From: Bacteroidaceae bacterium
Lineage (GTDB): Bacteria > Bacteroidota > Bacteroidia > Bacteroidales > Bacteroidaceae
NCBI GenBank assembly: GCA_017398805.1
Contig: JAFQEZ010000004.1
Coordinates: 1-51,458 of the forward strand
Direction of reading: 5' to 3'
Length of the DNA: 51,458 nt
This document shows positions 12,040 to 13,644 of this stretch, piece after piece (position 1 is the stretch's first letter; the number at the start of each line of letters is the position of its first letter). Below the pieces are notes generated by a model. It ran no database searches. It saw only the letters and a list, made by a program, of their open reading frames with translations, and had not been told where the DNA came from. The position numbers were made by a program, and so were the translations under genes.

Positions 12040-13644
12040 TTATCCCTTGCGGGCAACAACATTCTTTACGAAATCCATAACAACGGGCGAAGGATGAAGC
12101 ACTGTACTTGAGTACTGCGGTTCATAGATTACACCCACATACCAGTCATTGGCAGGGAACTCTACGATATCTACCAGGCCGCTGTCGGGGTGAACACCGG
12201 TGCAGGCAAGACCTGCTTCTACGAGCTGGTCGCGGTACTCCACATTGAGTTCATAACGGTGATAGTGACGCTCCGTTACCTTGTCGGTACCATAGATTGA
12301 ATATGCCTTTGTATCCTTGCTTATTACAGTGTCGTATCCTCCACGGCGCATTGTTCCGAATGGATTGCCTACACTCTTGAGGTCCTCCATTATGTCCACG
12401 ATGCGATGCTTTGTCTGGTCGTTCATCTCATAGCTGTTGGCATCGGCAAGACCTACTATATTGCGTGCTACCTCAATTGCCATTACCTGCATACCCAAGC
12501 CGATACCGAGAGTAATCAGGTTGTTCTCGCGGCAATACTTTGCGGCAATTACCTTACCCTCGAAGCCACGCGGACCTACACCCGGACAAATTATGTAACC
12601 GTCCATGCCTTTGAGCATCTGCGCAACATTCTCCTCGGTAATCTTCTCACTGTTGATGAAGTGAGGCTTAATCTTGCAGTCGTTGTAGGTACCGCACTGG
12701 TAAAGGCTCTCATGAATACTCTTGTATGCATCCTGAAGGTCGTACTTGCCCACAAGACCAATGTTGATGATTCTCTTAGCATTGTTGCGACGCTCAACGA
12801 ATGTGCGCCATGGGGTCATTGCAGGTGTCTCGCCTACCTCCTCGCCTGTAAGACGGAGGATTGCTGCATCAAGTCCCTGCTCCTGCATCTTGATAGGCAC
12901 TTCATAAATTGAAGGCACGTCAAGGCTCTGCACTACGCAATCAGGCATAACATTGCAGAAACTTGCAACCTTCTTGCAAAGACCTACGCTCAGTTTGTGC
13001 TCGGCACGGAGCACGAGACAGTCGGGCTGGATACCGAGGCTCTGCAGCTGCTTAACAGAGTGCTGTGTAGGCTTTGTCTTGAGCTCGCCGGCAGCAGAAA
13101 GGTAAGGAACATACGTTAGATGTACGCACACAGCGCGACGACCGAGTTCCCACTTGAGCTGGCGTATAGCCTCGAGGAATGGAAGACCCTCAATGTCACC
13201 AACAGTACCGCCGATCTCTGTAATCACAAAGTCGAACTTATCCTTTGTGCTGCCACGCTTCATCTTGCGCTTTATCTCATCGGTGATGTGAGGAATAACC
13301 TGAACAGTCTTTCCAAGATACTCGCCACGACGCTCCTTCTCAATAACCTCGCTATATATGCGGCCGGTAGTGAATGTGTTCCAGCGTGTAGTCTTTATGT
13401 CAGTGAAACGCTCATAGTGGCCAAGGTCAAGGTCAGCCTCATGACCGTCAATAGTGATATAACACTCGCCATGCTCCTGTGGATTCAGTGTGCCCGGAGA
13501 GACATTGATATACGGGTCGAATTTCTGGATTGTAACCTTGTATCCTCTCGCCTGCAAGAGTTTGCCGAGAGATGCAGAGATGATACCTTTACCGAGTGAC
13601 GATGCAACACCGCCTGTCACGAAAATGAATTTTGTTTCAGCCAT
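12040..13644 (-). CDS. pyrG: CTP synthase with degenerate glutaminase domain
   Basis: 534 residues, normal length. It makes CTP from UTP, ATP and an ammonia source. The N-terminal synthetase domain is intact ([10 protein letters not shown] at 11-20, [13 protein letters not shown] at 40-52, [11 protein letters not shown] at 143-153, KTKPTQ). The C-terminal class I glutamine amidotransferase fold is present and conserved in its scaffold ([22 protein letters not shown]), but all three catalytic residues are replaced: the nucleophile motif GICLGMQ reads GIGLGMQ (Gly382), and the HPE motif reads YEPQY (Glu508 for His, Gln510 for Glu). By family knowledge such an enzyme should not use glutamine and would need free ammonia. 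The codons were checked in the DNA (GGC, GAA, CAG). It is monocistronic, with a perfect promoter at 13702-13733 and a terminator at 11980-12017. Confidence 0.96.

Follow-up and report, generated by a model that had tools for sequence, protein, structure and literature searches.

Can a CTP synthase that has lost the catalytic triad of its glutaminase domain still make CTP, and from which source of nitrogen? ATP-dependent amidotransferases are mostly thought to draw their nitrogen from glutamine in the cell. The question was raised by a pyrG gene in the window, that is, the whole 51,458-nucleotide stretch of a Bacteroidaceae genome analyzed here, for which an initial annotation had claimed replacement of all three triad residues. 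With the E. coli PyrG of the K-12 record as the reference for residue numbering, we placed the following features, all of them on the minus strand.

12040..13644, minus strand: pyrG, CTP synthase of 534 aa with the glutaminase triad replaced (open frame, PyrG profile and codons)
12847..13644, minus strand: synthetase (amidoligase) domain, residues about 1-266 (Pfam domain and residue alignment)
12043..12777, minus strand: class I glutaminase (GAT) domain, degenerate, residues about 290-534 (Pfam domain and alignment)
12565..12585, minus strand: oxyanion/lid L11 segment, reading PGVGPRG where the aligned sequences of other genera have PGFGQRG, with E. coli Phe353 replaced by Val and Tyr355 by Pro
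12499..12501, minus strand: nucleophile position (E. coli Cys379), Gly, codon GGC (codon and alignment)
12340..12360, minus strand: GTP-activation motif, FGTMRRG (consensus GG[TS][ML]RLG; alignment)
12250..12273, minus strand: ERHYHRYE (E. coli ERHRHRYE), in which the GTP contact Arg468 is Tyr (alignment)
12121..12123, minus strand: triad His position (E. coli His515), Glu, codon GAA (codon and alignment)
12115..12117, minus strand: triad Glu position (E. coli Glu517), Gln, codon CAG (codon and alignment)

The protein matched its family over the full length, scoring 659 bits in the NCBIfam PyrG model, whose cut-off is 462.75, and both Pfam domains, CTP_synth_N and GATase, were found. Against the model for CTP synthase C-terminal region-related (seleno)proteins (NF004836) it reached 106 bits, short of the cut-off of 260. 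Direct reading reproduced all three annotated codons and their coordinates exactly, and the class I Cys-His-Glu triad is thus replaced by Gly, Glu and Gln. The GAT domain is retained without its nucleophile, as in an ammonia-dependent amidoligase of the carbamoyl phosphate synthetase I kind, and from the absent nucleophile we regard it as almost certain that glutamine would be unusable by this enzyme.

The changes extend beyond the triad. The GTP-activation motif departs from the consensus and Arg468 is lost, and these changes, together with those in the lid, were present in 21/21 copies with the dead triad, the motif reading FGIMRRG in one genome. A review and a structure paper on the enzyme assign to the altered lid and GTP places roles in GTP binding, guarding of the glutamine site and activation, and name Drosophila Phe373, which from its place in the alignment we take to correspond to E. 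coli Phe353, as a guard of the glutamine site (PMC9138612; PMC8325340). The annotation had described the synthetase half and the remainder of the protein as intact; this held for the synthetase site but not for the glutaminase half, which is altered at the lid, Arg468 and the GTP motif. An ammonia-only enzyme would be expected to lose its GTP site along with its triad, an expectation that the changes in the window PyrG fit.

We compared 44 genomes of the genus, in 30 of which the triad could be read. Identical replacement residues (Gly, Glu, Gln) were present in 21/44 genomes and intact Cys, His and Glu in 9/44, while the remaining genomes comprised one with a full match and an unread triad (G304), one with the N-terminal part only (G316), and 12 without pyrG. 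Mapping the triad onto a PyrG tree, as had been proposed with the annotation, placed all 21 dead rows among 49 in a single clade (support 100), beside the nine intact rows (99). The dead-triad genomes form one clade of 21 species-level genomes, and the 20 dead PyrG besides that of the window share 88-98% identity with it. In the sister clade the triad is intact, although 9/9 of its sequences have Gln383 replaced by His, Glu403 by Asp, and an altered activation motif (GDVMRLG and similar); in E. coli, Gln383 and Glu403 presumably have glutamine-binding roles. All 14 of the PyrG rows taken from the family's other genera have Cys, His and Glu. A second collection, which overlaps the 44-genome set and consists of 25 records, all metagenome-assembled Bacteroidaceae or Bacteroidales, had the same dead motifs in 22/25 named loci, an intact triad in two, and a sequence too short to read in one. 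Ruminant caecum, colon or rectum appeared in the sample names of 22 of these 25 records, and it is from such names that we infer an ammonia-rich gut setting.

The synthetase site was preserved. At 32 of 37 inspected positions the window PyrG matches E. coli, and at the other five its residues recur in other genera of the family; a single one of the 37 is variable among the 21 dead copies. The tunnel segment (approximately E. coli 50-61) has the form seen in other genera. Median dN/dS in the dead clade was 0.015 for the synthetase domain (188 pairs) and 0.049 for the glutaminase half (132 pairs). Corresponding values were 0.017 (13 pairs) and 0.052 (6 pairs) in the sister clade and 0.012 (5 pairs) and 0.028 (4 pairs) in other genera, with dS near saturation and few pairs in both comparison groups. 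The ratio of amino acid differences between the glutaminase and synthetase halves was 4.9 in the dead clade, 5.2 in the sister clade and 1.8 in other genera, such that the GAT half evolves faster in the triad-intact sister clade just as it does in the dead clade. Because of the low dN/dS values (0.015 and 0.049) and the stop-free frames in the dead copies listed, both domains are still under purifying selection. As the initial annotation had maintained, the gene is not decaying (dN/dS about 0.015 for the synthetase and about 0.05 for the glutaminase domain, in a state common to 21 genomes), and its glutaminase half is less constrained in both clades of the genus.

Other glutamine-dependent enzymes of the genus had also been lost or altered. 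CarA was present in 3/44 genomes, all with an extra gene cluster described below, and absent from 41/44, while native CarB was found in at least 41/44. At the five loci inspected, native carB adjoins a gene for a PurF-like protein, with no carA between them. A PurF-CarB fusion (open frames of 1712-1743 aa) was considered and rejected, there being a stop between the genes at the loci inspected. One PurF-like protein beside carB (L199:6236-8116) reached 133 bits where the curated purF cut-off is 350, and was the sole one of eight scanned to fall below every cut-off. GuaA matches were found in 27/44 genomes and no GuaA hit in 17/44; the full-length form occurred in 4/44, again all with the extra cluster, and a glutaminase-truncated form in 26/44. 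The short GuaA has about 435 aa where read, and its glutaminase domain breaks off some 75 positions into the 188-position model. In G249, which belongs to a different genus within the family, a gene that by eye resembles mscL precedes the full-length guaA, and the short guaA comes third (L246:5579-8478); in the genome of the window only short guaA comes after the mscL-like gene. Since G249 carries both forms side by side, the short form is the older one and was kept, and the full-length, glutamine-dependent guaA was lost; truncation within this genus was rejected, as another genus already has the short form.

NadE was matched in 41/44 genus genomes, and among 33 copies from 31 genomes its nitrilase nucleophile was Gly in 26, Asp in one and Cys in six. 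The window's genome (G000) and G200 each have one disarmed NadE and one with Cys, four others (G046, G085, G252, G310) have NadE with Cys, and only disarmed copies were read in the other 25. The distribution on the tree suggests that the nucleophile was lost in several events. The intact second NadE of G000 and G200 (L243, L291) lies in the order dapF-dapL-nadE-regulator (by eye) and occupies a long branch, separate from the disarmed copies.

Searches with E. coli protein probes recovered GlmS, AsnB, GltB and PabA in 0/10 genus genomes, the PabA probe cross-matching only the extra cluster, and neither GlmS nor AsnB was among the matches listed for the 44 genomes, with at most eight candidates scored per genome and this ceiling reached in seven. 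NagB and AsnA, along with a further NagB-like protein, were present in 10/10, and glutamate dehydrogenase in 12/12. Glutamine synthetase type I was found in 8/12 genomes; three others gave only a weak match, the protein hit being longer, and G186 gave nothing. AmtB was found in 0/12, a search that covered genus genomes. Glutamine use is nevertheless reduced rather than abolished, because PurL (Cys and HPE motifs, two copies read), the PurF-like protein (N-terminal Cys in copies read) and HisH (Cys and His-Pro-Glu, five copies read) keep their catalytic residues.

Control searches in 14 genomes of 12 other genera recovered CarA in 12, full-length GuaA in 14, GlmS in nine, PabA in 11, AsnB in 10 plus one partial, and GltB in 10 plus one partial; the same probes found only the GuaA remnant in the window's genome and G020. 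Within the control set, GlmS was missing from 5/14, G009 had only GuaA, and G002 only GuaA and PabA. Based on these controls, the losses are concentrated in the genus, yet not confined to it. Across 393 genomes of the order, a pattern search matched 20 places in 19 genomes, and three of these places are PyrG, namely that of the window and two from other families; the pattern takes only Gly or Ala at the nucleophile, followed by LGMQ or FGMQ, so this census is incomplete. The PyrG of G695 and G430 (L316, L319), from two other Bacteroidales families, had Cys379 replaced by Gly alone, with HPE kept and 57% identity; each is a single genome without confirmation from relatives. The notion that nucleophile loss was unique in the order was rejected on these two sequences, and glutaminase loss may have begun independently in other families.

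We found no second pyrG in the window's genome, an assembly of 108 contigs that is 87% complete, and no genus genome checked is closed. An extra intact-triad pyrG, with about 63% identity, was present in 4/44 genomes, G144 and G200 from the dead clade and G264 and G322 from the sister clade. A second intact copy, which the annotation had named as evidence against its own reading, was not found in the incomplete window assembly but is present in 2/21 dead-triad genomes; none was found in the other 19, and a second pyrG match in G315 proved by its coordinates to be a named locus (L043) with a dead triad as well. The extra pyrG sits downstream of purF, carA, carB and guaA (loci L087, L088, L089, L090), the cluster in G264 being cut by a contig that begins within carB. 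Intact Cys and HPE motifs were present in CarA from three of these clusters and in GuaA from all four. The four extra pyrG copies formed one clade on a long stem of the PyrG tree, and their downstream neighbors differ between clusters. In G144 the cluster lies approximately 2 kb from pheT, the only pheT listed for that genome and 81-94% identical to other listed pheT of the genus, while contig C9 of G200 carries both the extra cluster and the native, carA-less purF-carB. Plain contamination is thus unlikely and was rejected on these genus-type genes of the same contigs, though the assembly may be chimeric. The simplest reading is that the cluster was acquired by transfer, perhaps as a cassette for glutamine use.

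Two genes flank pyrG in the window.

13782..14366, minus strand: maf, upstream neighbor of pyrG
11025..11831, minus strand: GH108-type muramidase, directly downstream of pyrG

In G020 and G322 a his operon lies between maf and pyrG, and in G200 the GH108-type muramidase was not seen beside pyrG. GH108 muramidases are usually those of phages. Elsewhere in the window, positions 6446-9445 encode a Penicillinase_R-type repressor and then a protein of 856 aa that ends in a TonB C-terminal domain, resembling a BlaI/BlaR1-type pair, and positions 46639-48087 encode an iron-only hydrogenase large-subunit domain with 4Fe-4S domains.

Several other explanations for the altered triad were weighed. All 25 named genus records are metagenome-assembled, and the annotation had itself raised sequencing error at the three sites; the same residues in 21/44 genomes, which form one clade and include 20 proteins 88-98% identical to that of the window, contradict this, and an artefact of sequencing, assembly or frame was rejected as having virtually no likelihood. 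Decay toward salvage, in which cytidine nucleotides from outside made PyrG dispensable and the glutaminase was the first part to be lost, has more in its favor. Twelve of the 44 genomes have no pyrG, six of them forming one clade on the NadE tree (99) with one member 98% complete at 7% contamination, and in G317 (C12, L247) and G186 (C19, L248) his genes are present with no pyrG after them within the stretch read, while in G312 (C9, L249) the contig ends soon after the his genes. GuaA is likewise missing from 17/44, the cytidine/uridine kinase Udk was found in 8/12 genus genomes, and the difference ratios of 4.9 and 5.2, compared with 1.8 in other genera, point in the same direction. However, the selection on both domains evident from dN/dS and the stop-free frames runs counter to decay, and Udk had no match in G317 and G186, the pyrG-less genomes tested, though it had none in G200 and G101 either; we consider this explanation improbable.

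Two further explanations were weighed. The window PyrG might have a role other than CTP synthesis, with an intact pyrG hidden in the missing 13% of the assembly. G144 and G200 would be precedents, as dead-triad genomes with a second intact pyrG on contigs that also carry genus-type genes, but the failure to find such a copy in the remaining 19 dead-triad genomes, and the conservation of the inspected synthetase-site residues in dead copies, render this very unlikely. The annotation had also suggested that another protein supplies the ammonia, which would require a separate glutaminase to dock on PyrG. Such a partner would account for a GAT domain that is retained rather than deleted, and two-subunit amidotransferases do exist, according to part of one account (PMC10526850). 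Nevertheless, a census of PF00117 proteins in the window's genome returned only PyrG, the GuaA remnant and a protein of approximately 595 aa, the last of which was rejected as a candidate, being by eye a C26-type peptidase joined to a dipeptidase. With no partner glutaminase among the PF00117 proteins of this assembly, only Maf and the GH108 muramidase beside pyrG, and parallel losses in carbamoyl phosphate, GMP and NAD synthetases that would demand several partners, a docked glutaminase has little chance of being the answer.

We return to free ammonia. The window PyrG is likely an ammonia-only CTP synthase and one case of a genus-wide shift to free ammonia, judged from sequence comparisons. 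The initial annotation's interpretation is partly supported: reliance of the organism on free ammonia for CTP fits this comparative evidence and is strengthened by the parallel losses in carbamoyl phosphate, GMP and NAD synthetases and in further glutamine enzymes. Several observations count against an ammonia-based reading, among them the catalytic residues kept in the copies read of the PurF-like protein, PurL and HisH, the 6/33 NadE copies with Cys (one in the window's genome), the extra intact cluster in 4/44 genomes, the 12/44 genomes lacking pyrG and 17/44 lacking a GuaA hit, the AmtB result of 0/12, the losses seen in some other genera, and the equally fast GAT evolution of the triad-intact sister clade. 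More broadly, the balance of evidence inclines toward a genus that largely swapped glutamine for free ammonia as the amide donor for CTP, GMP, carbamoyl phosphate, NAD, asparagine and glucosamine, by the unrelated routes of gene deletion, loss of a full-length paralogue, nucleophile substitution and enzyme replacement; some members would later have gained an intact glutamine-dependent cluster, and the window PyrG would be a natural ammonia-only CTP synthase. This ruminant-gut group probably builds with free ammonia from its surroundings, and a lasting high ammonia level in the ruminant hindgut may have turned free ammonia into one of the main amide donors in the genus.

Passages of the two papers cited above indicate that exogenous NH3 is used by CTP synthase, and that GTP blocks its entry by plugging the presumed opening (PMC9138612; PMC8325340). 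In the proposed mechanism, ATP would phosphorylate UTP as usual, given the conserved residues, and free NH3, as structures in the literature and the changes at the GTP site suggest, would enter through the unplugged GTP cleft and then the conserved tunnel. There it would aminate 4-phospho-UTP and displace phosphate to yield CTP, the established chemistry of the family. If true, the lineage, with several disarmed amidotransferases, would offer a natural experiment on the conditions under which free ammonia is enough, and the predicted ammonia requirement could guide the culture of uncultured hindgut bacteria. The enzyme itself would, if so, be a natural CTP synthase for studying ammonia entry without glutaminase or GTP control. 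For annotation there is a pitfall, in that a PyrG with a dead triad and a short GuaA both pass models named as glutamine-hydrolysing.

Compared with known systems, the window PyrG shares with the canonical glutamine-dependent enzyme (TIGR00337) the same two domains at full length and a score above the cut-off, but differs in its triad, lid and GTP-activation motif. Carbamoyl phosphate synthetase I, which belongs to animals and is activated by N-acetylglutamate, retains a glutaminase-like domain that lacks the Cys. As an ATP-dependent amidoligase using ammonia, described as such in part of one source (PMC6022934), it can be likened to the window PyrG, although it is a different enzyme and in the window PyrG the whole triad is replaced. 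Among the matches listed from the open-access literature, none described a naturally occurring CTP synthase with a dead glutaminase, or a pattern of this kind across a genus. A laboratory counterpart is E. coli CTP synthase G352P, which, in the passage describing it, had no detectable glutamine-dependent activity and almost full activity with NH4Cl (PMC9138612); that variant has one engineered change, whereas the window PyrG is natural and has three triad changes and further ones. Lastly, ammonia-dependent, single-domain NadE is a natural amidotransferase that uses ammonia rather than glutamine, according to part of a published account (PMC3376133), but it has no glutaminase domain, whereas the NadE of this genus keeps its nitrilase domain with the nucleophile replaced in most copies read.
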